64,000 nucleotides of DNA from an uncultured Flavobacteriaceae bacterium (GTDB lineage: Bacteria > Bacteroidota > Bacteroidia > Flavobacteriales > Flavobacteriaceae). The stretch is from NCBI GenBank assembly GCA_947488345.1, contig CANKZQ010000003.1, positions 186,001-250,000 of the forward strand, written 5' to 3'. Below the pieces are notes generated by a model that was not told where the DNA came from, did not search any database, and worked only from the letters and a program-made list of their open reading frames with translations. The position numbers were made by a program, and so were the translations under genes. The first letter of the stretch is position 1. Every line of letters starts with the position of its first letter. This document shows positions 16,391 through 23,115 of this stretch, piece after piece.

Positions 16391-16888
16391 TTGGTACGTA
16401 TTTTATTGCTGTCGGACACACATAGTTATATTGATAATCAAATTTTGAAATTTGTCAAGCAAGCAGATGAAGTATGGCATGCTGGTGACATTGGTGACCT
16501 TAAGGTGAGTGATGCTATTAAAGCTCTAAAACCGTTTAGAGCTGTCTATGGAAATATTGATAATGCCAGTATTCGAGCAGAATTTCCACTGGATAATGAG
16601 TTTATCGTTGAGAAGGTCTCTGTTTATATGACCCATATAGGAGGTTATCCATATAAATACAATCAACGGACAAGAGAGAAATTGCATAGAAACCCACCAG
16701 ATATTTTTATTTCGGGACATTCACATATTTTGAAAGTAATGCCCGATAAAAAACTAAACTTGCTACATATGAACCCTGGAGCGGCAGGCAAACACGGGTT
16801 TCATAGTATTCGCACTATGCTGCGATTCGTTATCGACCAAAAAGAAATTAAGGAGTTGGAGGTTATTGAAATCGGCAAACGAGGTTAA
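16391..16888 (+). CDS. YfcE/MJ0936-family metallophosphoesterase
   Basis: This 165-residue protein contains the five calcineurin-like metal-binding motifs in order: LLSDTHS (Asp, His), WHAGDIGD (Asp), VYGNIDN (Asn), MTHIGG (His) and SGHSHI (two His). Proteins of this size hydrolyse phosphodiesters in vitro with Mn2+, and the natural substrate is usually unknown. The start is TTG at 16391; the ORF has no better ATG before the first metal motif. Its end overlaps the end of the convergent sensor kinase gene by four bases. Confidence 0.87.
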   Translation: MVRILLLSDTHSYIDNQILKFVKQADEVWHAGDIGDLKVSDAIKALKPFRAVYGNIDNASIRAEFPLDNEFIVEKVSVYMTHIGGYPYKYNQRTREKLHRNPPDIFISGHSHILKVMPDKKLNLLHMNPGAAGKHGFHSIRTMLRFVIDQKEIKELEVIEIGKRG

Positions 16889-18723
16889 GCTCTTGGTACT
16901 ATGGGTACTAAAATAAAGATACTCGTACCATTATTCTTAGAAGAAACAATATTAAATACACCTTTCATCACGGTGATACGGGCATCGATATGACTCAGCC
17001 CTAAACCACCTTTTGTTTTTGCTTTTTTTGCATCAAAACCAATACCATCATCATTCATTCGAATGCTCAACATATTATTCTCTCGGTGCGCTAACATAAT
17101 CGTGGCATTTTTCGCTTTACTATGTTTTAAAATATTATTCACCAGTTCTTCGATAATACTGTGAATCTTAATTTCAAAATCTTGCTCGTACCGTTTCACA
17201 CCGTCATCATCACTGAATAAAGAAATTTCTGAATTCGAGTATTTTTGACACATATCATGTACGGCGAAGGCCAATCCAAATTTTAATAAAACGGAGGAAA
17301 TCAGTTCATGTGACAAATCTCTAATTTTTACTGAAGCTTCGTTTACAATAGTTTGCGCTTTGGTGATTTCTTGAGGATAGCCTGTTTTCAGTTGGGCTTT
17401 GGTTGCTTGTAAATGCAGGTTGGCCGACGATAAGAGGGCACTGACGCTATCGTGTAAGATCTCTGCAATCGATTTCCGTTCTTTTTCTTTAGCATCGATA
17501 GTAGCATTAATGATTTTAATTTGGGCATCACTGGCCAATTTGTCTACTTCGCGCTCTTGTTTTAAACGGTAGTTTCGATAAAAGATATAGCCTACCACCA
17601 ACATCGAAATAAAGGCAAAAATGGTGGCATATGAAAAGAACTGCGCACGCTGACGTTTCGATTTTTCTTTTTCAGCATTACTTGCCGCTTCAGCTACGTT
17701 GTATTTAGCTTCTATTTCAGAAATATTCTTTGCTGCACTTACTTCTGACAAACTATCCGTTAAATTAGTGGCTTGTTCTAAATACCTAAAGGCCTTTTCA
17801 AAATCCTTTAATTCATCATTTACATAAGCTAGGTTATAGAGTAAACTTTCTCTTATTCTTAAGATTCTAATTTTTTTGGCATCAAAGTTTTTTATAGCCT
17901 CATAGGCCTCTAAATAATTGTTTCTAACCGTTAAGAAATCTTTCTTTTTATAAAGTATACTGCTCAAATTAATTAATCCGATAGCAGCCCCTAATGTGTC
18001 TTTCTGTAATTTCTTAATGTCTATAGATTTATTAATATATTCTTCGGCCAATTCAAGATCATCATCATCATTTGCAATATTGCTCAGGTTATTATAGGCC
18101 CTAGAAATTGTCTTACCATTAATGTTATTAACTTTTTGAAGGTTAATTACGTTTTTATAATACGAAACTGCCGAATCTATTTGCTTAGCCATCTTAAATG
18201 TCAATCCAATGGCCAAATTTGACTTAAGCAATTCTAATGTATCTTTTACCTTACTTGAGGTGTAAAATGCCTTTTTATAATAGTCAATAGATCTTGTGTA
18301 GTCCTTAGAATCTCTAAAAATTTCTCCTAAATAATTAGAATATTTGATTTTTAATTGAGGTAAATTTAATGACTCTAAATCGTCCAACCCTTCTAATAAC
18401 AACTCCATCGCCTTTTCTTCATTCTGAATATTATAGTATGCTTCACCCTTTTTCAAATTGACAAATAGTCTATTTTCATCAACTGAAATATATTCCTCAT
18501 AATTTTCTAAATCTGTCAATTTTGAGAGAGCCAAAACATAGTCCTTTTCAGCAATAACCTTATTAATTGTGACCAGTTTTCCCTCAATATGTTTTGCTAA
18601 CTGTTCGCTTTGTCCGTTTAGTTTAAAAACGCCACTTAGAAGTAAAAATAAACAACAAAGCGTCAATAAGGGTTGATTATTCATATAGGGATTTTTAAGC
18701 GTGAGAAAATTAGATAATTTCAT
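16885..18723 (-). CDS. TPR-containing sensor histidine kinase (HisKA_3/NarX-LiaS type)
   Basis: A signal sequence leads to a periplasmic region of TPR-like repeats (about residues 40-350, for example LLKSNLAIGLTFKMAKQ). One membrane helix then leads through a coiled coil to the kinase core. The phospho-acceptor His is in IAEILHDSVSALL. The ATPase domain shows the N-box EELVNNILKHSKA and GIGFDAKKAKTKGGLGL. The start at 18723 gives a basic n-region and overlaps the regulator gene by 14 bases; 18684 (MNNQPLL) is an alternative start. It is the natural partner of the regulator upstream. The TPR region suggests sensing through a bound protein or peptide. Confidence 0.88.
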   Translation of the reverse strand: MKLSNFLTLKNPYMNNQPLLTLCCLFLLLSGVFKLNGQSEQLAKHIEGKLVTINKVIAEKDYVLALSKLTDLENYEEYISVDENRLFVNLKKGEAYYNIQNEEKAMELLLEGLDDLESLNLPQLKIKYSNYLGEIFRDSKDYTRSIDYYKKAFYTSSKVKDTLELLKSNLAIGLTFKMAKQIDSAVSYYKNVINLQKVNNINGKTISRAYNNLSNIANDDDDLELAEEYINKSIDIKKLQKDTLGAAIGLINLSSILYKKKDFLTVRNNYLEAYEAIKNFDAKKIRILRIRESLLYNLAYVNDELKDFEKAFRYLEQATNLTDSLSEVSAAKNISEIEAKYNVAEAASNAEKEKSKRQRAQFFSYATIFAFISMLVVGYIFYRNYRLKQEREVDKLASDAQIKIINATIDAKEKERKSIAEILHDSVSALLSSANLHLQATKAQLKTGYPQEITKAQTIVNEASVKIRDLSHELISSVLLKFGLAFAVHDMCQKYSNSEISLFSDDDGVKRYEQDFEIKIHSIIEELVNNILKHSKAKNATIMLAHRENNMLSIRMNDDGIGFDAKKAKTKGGLGLSHIDARITVMKGVFNIVSSKNNGTSIFILVPIVPRA

Positions 18724-19387
18724 TACGCATAGCAAAAATTGCCAAGCCAACACTATTTTTTACATTGGTTTTTTTAATCAAATTCTTACGGTGAGTCTCT
18801 ACGGTACTATCACTAATATGTAAGGTCTCACTAATTTCTTTGGTAGTATATTGTTGTGCAATCAATTTTAAAATTTGATATTCTCGACGGGTCAACGAAC
18901 TAATTAGAACTCCTTCAATATTATTATCATCGGCCGATTTTAAGGGTTTACTCATTAAGGTCTTCATCATCTTCTCTTTGATCTCGTCGCTAAAGTACTG
19001 TTCGTCATTATAGACCTTACGGATAGCCTTGACAATATGTTCTCCAGCCGATTTTTTAGGTACAAACCCCTTAGCCCCCATCCCGAGCACTTCTTTGACT
19101 AATTTAATGTCATCATAACTCGATAAAATCACCACTTGAGGTACATCATCATAATTGGCAAACTCTTTTAACACCCCAATACCATCTAACTTGGGCATAT
19201 TGATATCCAACACCAACACATCGGAACTGTGTTCACTAAACCAATCGATTACCTGGCTCCCATCTAAAGAGTAGCCCACCACTTCAATATCTTCTTCTAA
19301 ATCCAATACCGCCATCACTCCATCAATCAAAATCTGATGGTCATCTGCAATATGCACCGTAATCTTATTATCAATCAATTCTTCCAT
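18710..19387 (-). CDS. LuxR/NarL-family response regulator
   Basis: A 225-residue regulator. Its receiver domain has the acidic pair HIADDHQ (about residues 12-18), the phosphorylation site VLDINMPKLDG and the switch Lys in FVPKKSAG. The C-terminal LuxR helix-turn-helix is LTRREYQILKLIAQQYTTKE followed by DSTVETHRKNLIKK. It is phosphorylated by the overlapping kinase gene and binds DNA as a dimer. Candidate targets in sight are the 21-base repeats at 20072-20127 and the inverted repeat at 19984-20017, upstream of the exported-protein gene; that link is inference. Confidence 0.93.
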   Translation of the reverse strand: MEELIDNKITVHIADDHQILIDGVMAVLDLEEDIEVVGYSLDGSQVIDWFSEHSSDVLVLDINMPKLDGIGVLKEFANYDDVPQVVILSSYDDIKLVKEVLGMGAKGFVPKKSAGEHIVKAIRKVYNDEQYFSDEIKEKMMKTLMSKPLKSADDNNIEGVLISSLTRREYQILKLIAQQYTTKEISETLHISDSTVETHRKNLIKKTNVKNSVGLAIFAMRNEII

Positions 19388-19548: not shown

Positions 19549-19938
19549 CTATGGCTTTTCATCGATTAATACAGGTCTTTTCGCTATTATTCTTGATGTA
19601 GCCATCATATCGTCACCAGAAGCTACATCATAACTTGTTTCGAAATAGTGATCAAAACTTAAGGCTCTCATCTCTTCAAGTTCTAATGTATGTGAAACAG
19701 TAGTTCCCGACGTACCGTTTTCGATTAAAAATATTTTGAATTCACCATCTATAACTGAAGACGATACCGTAGTATTCGCATCAGTAGTAAAGGTTACTGA
19801 CTTGGCGTCATTATCTACAACCACATATGATTGTAATAGAGTTCCATCAATGTCTTTTAAAATTGTTTTGTTACTAGTATCGTTGGCAAATGAAGCCAAT
19901 AACAATACAGCGCACACAGCTAGTAGAGCTTTTCTCAT
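19549..19938 (-). CDS. Small exported protein of unknown function
   Basis: 129 residues with a clear Sec signal peptide (MRKALLAVCAVLLLASFA). The mature part is short, Thr/Ser/Asp-rich and beta-prone (SVTFTTDANTT, IFLIENG), with no cysteine after the signal region and no motif I recognise. It has its own strong promoter with a TTG/N21/TACTTTTG layout and a terminator, so it is a single-gene unit. Its upstream region is far richer in repeats than that of any other gene here, which suggests tight regulation, possibly by the neighbouring two-component pair. Confidence 0.7.
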   Translation of the reverse strand: MRKALLAVCAVLLLASFANDTSNKTILKDIDGTLLQSYVVVDNDAKSVTFTTDANTTVSSSVIDGEFKIFLIENGTSGTTVSHTLELEEMRALSFDHYFETSYDVASGDDMMATSRIIAKRPVLIDEKP

Positions 19939-19983: not shown

Positions 19984-20017
19984 ACTTTTGATTCACCAAA
20001 TTCTACGAATCAAAAGT
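19984..20017. repeat. Perfect 11-bp inverted repeat overlapping the -7 element
   Basis: The arms ACTTTTGATTC (19984-19994) and GAATCAAAAGT (20007-20017) are exact complements separated by 12 bases. The right arm covers most of the -7 element of the promoter at 20011-20042. It could be a dimer operator or fold into a hairpin at the very 5' end of the transcript. Confidence 0.65.
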
Positions 20018-20042
20018 ACTAGGTAAGGTGTGCACAAAACAA
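20011..20042 (-). promoter_or_regulatory. Promoter of the small exported-protein gene
   Basis: On the minus strand, TTG (20040-20042), a 21-base spacer and TACTTTTG (20011-20018) match the Bacteroidota consensus. The transcript leader would be about 65-70 bases long and would begin inside or just after the inverted repeat. Confidence 0.7.
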
Positions 20043-20071
20043 TAGCGAAAACGGGTGTTTTTAAAAATCCC

Positions 20072-20127
20072 TGAAAACCACTAGTTACTACCCAGAAACC
20101 ACTAGTTTTGACTTTCTTACCACTACA
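20072..20127. promoter_or_regulatory. Three direct repeats of CCACTA at exact 21-bp spacing
   Basis: CCACTA begins at 20078, 20099 and 20120. The first two copies share the longer core AAACCACTAGTT (20075-20086 and 20096-20107); the third is weaker. Spacing of 21 bases places all copies on one face of the helix. The array lies about 35-85 bases upstream of the -33 element of the exported-protein promoter, the usual place for activator sites. Confidence 0.6.
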
Positions 20128-20140
20128 AATAAAGGTAAAA

Positions 20141-20186
20141 ATTGTTAATAAGTTGTGTTTTTTGTTGATAAATATTGTTAATAAGT
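20141..20186. repeat. AT-rich repeats resembling DnaA boxes
   Basis: ATTGTTAATAAGT occurs at 20141-20153 and 20174-20186, with a related TTGTTGATAAAT at 20162-20173. The cores TGTTGATAA and TGTTAATAA are one and two changes from the DnaA box TGTGGATAA. An AT-rich stretch follows (20187-20275). The match is suggestive only. Confidence 0.4.
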
Positions 20187-20253
20187 ATGTAATATACTGA
20201 TTATGAAGTTTTTACATTTTATCAAAATCATCGAAAAAAAAACTGCTAAAAAT

Positions 20254-20282
20254 TGTAGATACTCAATAAATTGCTAACTTAG
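20254..20282 (+). promoter_or_regulatory. Promoter of the candidate structured RNA
   Basis: TTG at 20254-20256, an 18-base spacer and TAACTTAG at 20275-20282 (one mismatch to TAnnTTTG) point to transcription starting near 20288. Confidence 0.45.
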
Positions 20283-20283
20283 C

Positions 20284-20558
20284 ACCTGAGAATAGGAAAC
20301 TCCTATTATAGTAAGGAGAGAAGCTCTATTGAAATGTTAAGTTTTCTTAACTGTTTTACTTCTCCCCTTTCTCCCCTTCCTTTCTCCCCTTATTACTAAG
20401 GAGTGTATTATAAATGTTTAGCGACGATTAATACTCCAAATGTATTGCAAAACCGAGTATCAGTCAATAGAGAGACTGGGTATTTTTGAAAATCATGGGA
20501 AACCGTGAGTTTTGCAGAAATTTTAAAAGACCTTGATAACTCAAGGTCTTTTTGCTTT
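20284..20558 (+). ncRNA. Candidate structured non-coding RNA, unassigned
   Basis: About 270 bases between a promoter-like signal and a strong plus-strand terminator, with no convincing gene on either strand. Local stems are dense: 20291-20297/20301-20307 (7 bp), 20336-20341/20346-20351 (6 bp, TTTT loop), and 20313-20323/20359-20369 (10 of 11 pairs, enclosing the previous stem). Others are 20400-20410/20429-20437 with a two-base bulge, 20466-ish CAGTC/GACTG, and a GAAA tetraloop hairpin around 20494-20507. A pyrimidine tract holds TCTCCCCTT three times (20361, 20370, 20383). It lacks the conserved blocks of tmRNA, RNase P and SRP RNA. 6S RNA cannot be excluded by eye. Confidence 0.55.
20525..20558 (+). 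terminator. Intrinsic terminator of the candidate RNA
   Basis: A 10-base-pair stem (20525-20534 with 20543-20552, eight-base loop) is followed by a T-rich tail. No plus-strand protein gene precedes it for more than 3.6 kb, so it must end a non-coding transcript. Confidence 0.8.
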
Positions 20559-20587
20559 TTTATACCTATACCTACTTCTTTAAAAAC

Positions 20588-20616
20588 AAAAAAAGCTGCT
20601 TTAAAAAAGCAGCTTT
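20588..20616 (-). terminator. Intrinsic terminator of the DUF4293 gene
   Basis: A 10-base-pair stem (20592-20601 with 20607-20616) is followed on the minus strand by seven T residues. It starts 28 bases after the DUF4293 stop codon. Confidence 0.8.
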
Positions 20617-20643
20617 CACACAAATATAACTAAGATGTTAGAA

Positions 20644-21075
20644 CTATCTCAACCTATCTACAGATTTTACGAGGTTTTCATCTTTATGTATCGCTTTATT
20701 TGCTAAAACCAACAATAAAACAACAACAAAGGGTATAAAAACTCCAATACCCTTCTCAGAGATTTTAGTCTCTCCAGGTAGCATTAGTAAATAATATATC
20801 AATACTCCTAATAAAATAAGGTTTATCAAAATATTTAATCTATTCAGCACAAACTGCAACTTTCGATTTTTAAACAAAAAAATCGTAATCAATGACAGCA
20901 CTGCTGAACCTATAAAAGAAAACGGCACTACCATTAGTATAGTATGTTCTGATGAAAGTAAATCTAACGCATATATAATCGTTTCATTTTCCTTCCACAA
21001 TGAGAACGCAAATATCAAACCGCCAGCTAAAACGCAGGCAAGTATTAAATATAATGTTTGAATTCTTTGGATCAT
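20644..21075 (-). CDS. DUF4293 four-helix membrane protein
   Basis: 143 residues with four hydrophobic segments. The opening MIQRIQTLYLILA is the family hallmark, followed by an extracytoplasmic loop (LWKENETII) and a conserved Arg/Asn segment between helices 2 and 3. DUF4293 is specific to Bacteroidota, and its gene regularly lies divergent from rho, as here. Its function is unknown. A TACTTTTG -7 element lies about 20 bases upstream and a good terminator lies downstream, so it is a single-gene unit. Confidence 0.88.
   Translation of the reverse strand: MIQRIQTLYLILACVLAGGLIFAFSLWKENETIIYALDLLSSEHTILMVVPFSFIGSAVLSLITIFLFKNRKLQFVLNRLNILINLILLGVLIYYLLMLPGETKISEKGIGVFIPFVVVLLLVLANKAIHKDENLVKSVDRLR

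Positions 21076-23042: not shown

Positions 23043-23115
<73 letters not shown>

Follow-up and report, generated by a model that had tools for sequence, protein, structure and literature searches.

In the GacS/GacA-RsmY/RsmZ system the response regulator GacA, which is of the LuxR type, drives RNAs with many repeated GGA motifs. For Flavobacteriia, few descriptions of regulatory RNA circuits exist to our knowledge. Two other systems, as far as the excerpts of their descriptions go, each show one half of the design that is proposed below (PMC8216469, PMC8687705). RosA of B. subtilis is portrayed as a stand-alone G-rich sponge which pairs with C-rich regions of RoxS and FsrA (PMC8216469), and the CJnc180/CJnc190 pair of Campylobacter jejuni combines a trans-acting sRNA directed at a G-rich site with an opposing RNA from the opposite strand (PMC8687705). 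For Flavobacterium psychrophilum, the excerpted report on Rfp18 presents a structured sRNA that is widely conserved in its genus (PMC9723704).

The locus considered here lies in a window of 64,000 nucleotides (the whole stretch of DNA that was analysed), in which a reading of the sequence alone, hereafter the sequence-only reading, had suspected an unassigned structured non-coding RNA on the plus strand. This suspected gene is very probably a real gene, and we have little doubt that it is a structured sRNA gene present throughout the genus Aureibaculum. Its transcript would start at about 20285-20290 and measure approximately 270 nt in the window genome, and would be shorter where the species lacks the 3' module (Table 1). 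The landmarks of the sequence-only reading were recovered: the plus-strand terminator is there, the promoter-like signal placed some 240 bases upstream corresponds to -33 and -7 elements about 240-270 bases 5' of that terminator, and the last credible plus-strand protein gene stops at 16888, in line with the roughly 3.6 kb said to be free of such genes. The long stem of 10 out of 11 pairs enclosing a TTTT-loop hairpin is helix P2 with its inner hairpin GTTAAG-TTTT-CTTAAC at 20336-20351, and the GAAA tetraloop hairpin was found at 20493-20508. The predicted fold of the plus strand between 20285 and 20560 has an energy of -73.8 kcal/mol, which none of 200 dinucleotide shuffles equals (mean -53, z -5.1).

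Table 1. Features of the sRNA locus and of the neighbouring genes, in window coordinates.
Feature	Positions	Strand	Basis and details
C-rich sRNA transcript (predicted)	20283-20552	+	R1 matches in 17/17 genomes of the genus, and covariation; core 20283-20437 modelled as R1
sRNA promoter (predicted)	20253-20282	+	-33 TTG at 20253-20255, 19 nt spacing, -7 TAACTTAG at 20275-20282
Intrinsic terminator and T-rich tail	20525-20561	+	Hairpin 20525-20552, 12 pairs, then T-rich tail
TGTTRATAA direct repeats	20143-20184	+	5' of the sRNA promoter
Helix P1	20288-20386	+	GAGAAUAGGAA at 20288-20298 with UUCCUUUCUC at 20377-20386
Helix P2	20313-20369	+	AAGGAGAGAAG at 20313-20323 with CTTCTCCCCTT at 20359-20369, one A.C mismatch
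C-rich stretches	20359-20394	+	CUUCUCCCC at 20359-20367, UUUCUCCCC at 20368-20376, UUUCUCCCCUUAUU at 20381-20394
Hairpin P3	20400-20437	+	GGAGU...ACUCC, near-invariant loop TAAATGTTTAGCGACGA at 20411-20427
G-rich hairpin unit	20307-20382	-	R2 match, 60.7 bits, E 4.8e-10; tandem-array family
Promoter/regulator module into the sRNA gene (predicted)	20437-20515	-	TTTCAAAAATACCC-N7-CTATTG (20491-20465), N20, TACATTTG (20444-20437)
Promoter module of the 129-aa gene (predicted)	20006-20107	-	Motif 20066-20040, N21, TACTTTTG
129-aa protein	19549-19938	-	Start resembles a signal peptide by eye; Pfam at E 0.001 gave no match
LuxR-type response regulator	18710-19387	-	Response_reg (REC) and GerE; proposed regulator of the module
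TPR histidine kinase	16885-18753	-	TPR, HisKA_3, HATPase_c; start codon uncertain

A search of the whole window with Rfam 15 gave a sole match at gathering score, a tRNA (tRNA-Met) at 23043-23115, and the same search of 20000-20800 at E up to 10 gave 33 matches, all below gathering score and none to 6S, tmRNA, RNase P, SRP or Flavo-1, in agreement with the sequence-only reading, which saw by eye no match to tmRNA, RNase P or SRP. With no gathering-score match, no tRNA or tmRNA and no conserved ORF at the locus, the description as an unassigned structured non-coding RNA is supported, and no Rfam family matched seven related loci. The best sub-threshold candidate, BTnc231 (minus strand, 20523-20638; 28.3 bits where the gathering score is 80.4), spans the terminators, outside the conserved core, and was rejected. 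A small protein was also rejected, as the ATG ORFs over the C-rich part vary in start, frame and length (21 aa in the window, 27 in G001, 35 in G016, 14 in G010 and none in G005). No description of this RNA appeared among the titles and abstract openings listed for open-licence papers, which speaks only weakly for its absence from the literature.

The sequence-only reading had named two comparative checks, conservation among relatives and covariation, and both turned out positive. A DNA search of 60 genomes gave matches in 21, namely all 17 Aureibaculum genomes (A. luteum, A. flavum and MAGs) and, weakly (E 0.0006-0.008), four others. The model R1 of the sRNA core, built from the 14 copies of alignment A1, finds the sRNA in the 17 genomes at E 7.8e-5 or better, where 12 genomes supplied model sequences and match by construction; of the five outside the model G002, G004 and G009 are near-copies of members, and the more distant G003 and G014 gave E values of 2.5e-5 and 7.8e-5. 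Among 14 genomes from outside the genus, five had R1 matches at an E threshold of 1, the best at 0.009. These fall in nine places: six are G-rich arrays read on the reverse strand, in G064, G291 and G184, and three are isolated and weak. R1 was also run at E 0.01, under the stricter filters used for all family-wide searches, against 397 family genomes (which may or may not include F. psychrophilum), and found four: three of Aureibaculum and, weakly, the array of G064. The locus resembles Rfp18 in being a structured flavobacterial sRNA with wide conservation in its genus, a likeness of description, as the excerpt on Rfp18 gives no sequence (PMC9723704). The end of a DUF4293 gene comes after the sRNA in 14 of 18 copies examined; for G001, G015, G014 and the second G001 copy the examined stretch did not show it.

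The proposed promoter was judged by comparison between genomes because E. coli-type promoter-like sites are not enriched in this region (29 against 28.6 expected between 16.5 and 23.5 kb). The Bacteroidota promoter consensus is TTG-N19/20-TAnnTTTG, which the -33 TTG and the -7 TAACTTAG resemble. The box adjoining the start is of the TAnnTT type in all 14 aligned copies (12 TAnnTTAG, one TATCTTTA and one TATATTGC), partly by construction since the script set the start by means of such a box. A TTG lies exactly 19 nt 5' of the box in eight of the 14 copies, and the other six are without any TTG at 14-24 nt before it. Terminator-like sites are enriched in the same 16.5-23.5 kb (12 against 3.5 expected), and a terminator-like hairpin with a T-run follows the core on the plus strand in 18/18 copies (14/14 in another count). 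Further upstream, the TGTTRATAA repeats are spaced by about 20 nt and precede the sRNA start by roughly 110 and 131 bases, with at least one copy in 11 of the 14 aligned loci; these are possibly the site of a separate regulator.

Three helices make up the core. Across the family the 5' arm GAGAAnAGGAA of P1 pairs with UUCCUUUUCUC, and in 17 of 18 minimum-energy folds this arm has its partner downstream, in a register that is not constant. Double-sided changes occur in seven of nine counted pairs of P1, in three of six of P2 and in none of P3, the stem of which hardly varies, so that P1, P2 and P3 together have them in 10 of 20 pairs (17 cells); the shuffled mean is 4.0 pairs with 0/500 shuffles as high, and slid-register controls gave 3-4 pairs. 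These shuffles leave relatedness in and the structure was predicted from alignment A1 itself, and the covariation is hence strong support for the sRNA structure, though not independent. The fold z-score favours the plus over the minus strand in 10 of 11 tested cores (out of 18 collected), some of them by small margins. The stretch UUUCUCCCCUUAUU is conserved with small changes in all 14 copies of A1, and CUCCCC is the C-rich motif of the sRNA stretches.

The second component is a family of tandem arrays of a G-rich unit complementary to the sRNA, seen in 15 of the 17 Aureibaculum genomes; G001 and G005, both incomplete and outside the search with R2, showed none. R2, the model of this unit, was built partly from arrays later counted, which match by construction, and without the minus-strand unit of the window; among 397 family genomes it finds six, in 3 of 237 genera. 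The array lies between what we take to be DUF4870- and mnmE-like genes on one side and a miaE-like gene on the other. In the window genome its units stand where contig C4 ends and where C2 begins, and the assembly break probably falls inside the array. The array RNA, repeated AGGGGAGAAAGGAGAGAAG...CUUYUCUCCUU, is read as G-rich because of the pairing counts in its stem and of the promoter positions. In 462 cells of 42 distinct units (from 53, with four skipped by the arm patterns of the script and duplicates counted once), the G-rich reading has 34 G.U and seven mismatched cells and the C-rich reading no G.U and 41 mismatches. The G-rich reading of the stem in alignment A2 has 16 G.U and one unpaired out of 220 cells with no double-sided changes, so that the support here is G.U usage and not covariation. 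Of the 15 Aureibaculum genomes with an array, 14 have a CTATTG-N20-TAnnTTTG promoter ahead of it, pointing in the G-rich direction, as do 3/3 genomes of other genera; the one array where it was not seen, in G015, begins at a contig end. On these same grounds the arrays as C-rich RNA, or as a multi-copy sRNA, were dropped.

The complementarity of sRNA and array arises by descent, the two being inverted copies of a single sequence. In this genome CUUCUCCCCUUUCUCCCCUU of the sRNA would form 13 and 6 pairs with an array unit around one mismatch, and the genome thus encodes a predicted G-rich partner RNA for the C-rich stretches. In a matrix of sRNA-array duplexes the cognate array was best in one (G010) of the 11 rows that have one, which gives no support for co-evolution.

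The strand opposite the sRNA carries a unit of the array family. R2 matches the strand opposite the core at 9 of 12 relatives' loci, above 50 bits at L004 and L005 only, and the remaining matches of 25-37 bits are in the range in which R2 weakly matches the wrong strand of arrays (25-35 bits), the array hairpin being partly self-complementary. The predicted promoters converge, at 20253-20282 on the plus and at 20491-20437 on the minus strand; the antisense promoter was found inside the sRNA locus in 7 of 17 genomes (G000, G001, G002, G004, G005, G013 and G015), and the 10 genomes without it still keep the core and the plus-strand terminator. Beyond the sequence-only reading, 20437-20515 would thus double as a regulator site and an opposite-strand promoter, in a locus that carries an antisense unit of the array family. 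This 3' module folds as a three-way junction of the plus-strand RNA, a functional reading which was demoted to a lesser possibility because the module is absent in 10 of 17 genomes and is explained as a minus-strand promoter. In G097, of another genus, a hairpin AAAAAGGAGAG...CUCUCCUUUUUU stands after a response regulator gene (L181) and has no R2 match; it is perhaps distantly related to the G-rich unit.

The motif TTTNAAAANYACCCN7CTATTG was found with at most one mismatch in all 17 genomes, and the reversed pattern, as a control, in none. In this genome there are four perfect sites and a fifth place with one mismatch. Of the perfect sites, one precedes the 129-aa gene that adjoins the response regulator, one is on the minus strand of the sRNA gene, one precedes the array and one a gene whose 131-aa product is secreted-like. 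The first ORF of at least 50 aa after the motif is the response regulator, recognised by sequence, in G003, G010 and G014, and the motif also precedes unrelated-looking genes in other genomes. From the positions of these sites we infer that the response regulator acts on the motif. Genes for secreted-like proteins of 115-133 aa follow the motif in L033/L133 (G000), L125 (G015) and L126 (G005), with the start codon approximately 440-590 nt 3' of it.

Taken as a circuit, the C-rich sRNA would be antagonised by G-rich RNAs driven by the response regulator, in the manner of RosA/RoxS and CJnc180/190, a proposal on which we stand evenly divided. The locus would encode an Aureibaculum-specific, trans-acting sRNA which offers its CUCCCC stretches to G-rich RNA for base-pairing. 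A cis antagonist, the G-rich hairpin RNA, would in some members of the genus come off the opposite strand, and a trans antagonist would be the tandem-array RNA from between the DUF4870/mnmE and miaE genes. Both would be transcribed from motif-bearing promoters, the motif standing also before the neighbouring LuxR-type regulator or the gene beside it. When the kinase and regulator are active, array and antisense RNA would rise and pair with the sRNA in the cell, and the targets of the sRNA would be relieved; this direction of control is the predicted one. In this reading regulator, antagonist RNA and sRNA appear to close into a circuit made up of one small locus and one array, a circuit that culturable marine strains would make testable.

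RosA, as excerpted, offers the likeness of a separate G-rich antagonist of a C-rich sRNA under its own transcriptional control, a likeness of design (PMC8216469). RosA is however under CcpA, and here there would be a multi-unit array together with a cis copy, with a motif that is linked by position to a two-component system (PMC8216469). The window locus would share with CJnc180/190 the antagonist RNA from the opposite strand of the sRNA's own gene, but that pair belongs to an unrelated lineage and a second, tandem-array source of antagonist is not apparent in the excerpted description (PMC8687705). The likeness to GacS/GacA-RsmY/RsmZ lies in a LuxR-type regulator proposed to drive a GGA-repeat RNA; in contrast to it, CsrA was not found here, the GGA motifs are in and before the stem, and the binding of the regulator is putative. 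The CsrA family (PF02599) was not found in G000, which is about 95% complete, and is present in 3 of 14 control genomes; the Hfq family was not found in the window genome.

Several observations count against the circuit. Arrays occur without the sRNA, the cognate array is best in 1/11 rows, the antisense promoter is present in 7/17 genomes and the -33 element is missing in 6/14 copies. The lower raw energy of the minus strand in 14/15 cores, the partial self-complementarity of the array hairpin and the lack of a conserved mRNA target among the loci read also count against it.

The chief rival, which we hold to be unlikely but worth serious weight, makes the array RNA itself the effector, a regulator-driven GGA-repeat decoy in the style of RsmY/RsmZ/CsrB, with the C-rich sRNA as a later antagonist in Aureibaculum; the target of the decoy would be an RNA-binding protein or the 16S rRNA tail. 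In two further genera, g45 (G064, G291) and g165 (G184), arrays with the same promoter type occupy the place of the sRNA directly after DUF4293 (L041, L116 and L117), and an R1 search found no convincing C-rich sRNA in these genomes, so that the array must have some role besides titrating the sRNA. In addition AGGGGAGAAAGGAGAGAAG is nearly invariant across the three genera, the regulator is of the LuxR type like GacA, and AGAAAGGAG could pair with the 16S tail, which we take to end in CCUCCUUUCU. Against this reading, CsrA was not found in G000, the AAGGAG part lies within an 11-bp stem and not in a loop, and flavobacterial ribosomes sequester the anti-SD, according to an excerpt of the report concerned (PMC9976891).

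The distribution bears on the origin of the sRNA as well. Among 30 DUF4293 loci from 30 genera the motif was found only at those of the window and of G064, and the DUF4293 loci of G097, G018 and G019 have a response regulator gene and no array. In the simplest history, we infer, the array came first and one remaining unit later gave rise, on its opposite strand, to the Aureibaculum sRNA; the three-genus distribution would then make it possible to trace how an sRNA gene emerged opposite an older RNA. A wider suggestion, which we put forward as doubtful, is that a two-component system of Bacteroidota signals via RNA, its LuxR-type regulator driving GGA-rich hairpin arrays which titrate a protein or the 16S tail, and that in Aureibaculum the antisense strand of one unit became an independent sRNA gene which neutralises the array. 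If this were true, the antisense strand of a regulatory RNA would have given birth to an sRNA, in a lineage in which Hfq and CsrA were both looked for and not found.

It is improbable, to a greater degree than the decoy, that mRNAs are the main targets of the sRNA, bound by its C-rich stretches as by those of the C-rich sRNAs of Firmicutes, with the arrays functionally unrelated. The conservation of UUUCUCCCCUUAUU is in agreement with such a role, and so is a candidate partner RNA in G000 (contig C5, L036:1490-1660) and G004 (L164), a short RNA or leader that has sequences resembling a promoter and a terminator and whose AGUAAUAAGGGGAG is a perfect 14-nt match, complementary to CUCCCCUUAUUACU of the sRNA. 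However, no target site conserved in the genus emerged among the loci read, and the array is the one complementary partner seen in 15/17 genomes. The seed complement AATAAGGGGAG occurs in 43 places in 16 of 17 genomes, of which 30 were read as loci and 13 lie outside this reading; the 30 comprise 10 sRNA loci, 12 that overlap long ORFs on one strand, three with a palindromic repeat and five elsewhere (L153, L155, L164, L168 and L170). The recurring loci L152, L165, L167 and L173 resemble, on the other strand, a coding start MIKKLPLL (checked in L165 and L173), and L170 is a 5'-leader-like site with one occurrence; a conserved mRNA target through AATAAGGGGAG was accordingly rejected for the loci read. 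A palindromic repeat CCTCCCCTT..AAATAAGGGGAGG after a AACCCCTCCGTCC-type stretch, in L154, L161 and L171 (G003, G016 and G001), looks like a mobile or repeat element.

That the minus-strand RNA alone is functional, with the plus-strand features as by-products, is very hard to believe: its raw folding energy is the lower one in 14 of 15 cores and the P2 mismatch of the window, A.C on the plus strand, becomes G.U on the minus, but the core and plus-strand terminator are kept in the 10/17 genomes without the antisense promoter, P1 covaries with most of its length outside the G-rich unit, and the plus-strand loop is also found, in a different context, in the second sRNA gene described below.

The loop of P3, UAARUGUUUAGCGACRA, is the most constant part of the sRNA and was found within two mismatches at the sRNA locus in 16 of 17 Aureibaculum genomes; G014 has no such loop at the locus among those listed, yet R1 finds the gene there. 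The same loop recurs in a second gene, sRNA-B, with another stem and 5' part, in seven genomes (L053, L054, L056, L066, L072, L074 and L058, the last partly masked). Shared by two sRNA genes in which the stems differ, the loop offers a concrete bait with which to look for an RNA-binding partner, and the P3 hairpin with its fixed loop may be a docking module. The loop as a base-pairing seed was rejected, as perfect TAARTGTTTAGCGACRA matches on either strand of the 17 genomes are confined to the genes of the window-type sRNA (sRNA-A) and sRNA-B with one exception, on contig C28 of G001, which by eye looks like a coding repeat.

The copies of sRNA-B have a box TATCTTAG or TATATTAG, in most cases CAGUCUACUU at the 5' side, the loop AUAAGUGUUUAGCGACAA and a different stem, and in the four loci examined they adjoin what is presumably a murI-like gene. 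In G001 a window-type sRNA (L023) adjoins a gene like that flanking sRNA-B in L074, which we take to be carbonic-anhydrase-like. Around position 1501 of L079 (G013, contig C41) the loop, with one mismatch, stands between a TATATTTG box and a terminator-like hairpin, and this may be a third small RNA gene of the loop-bearing kind.
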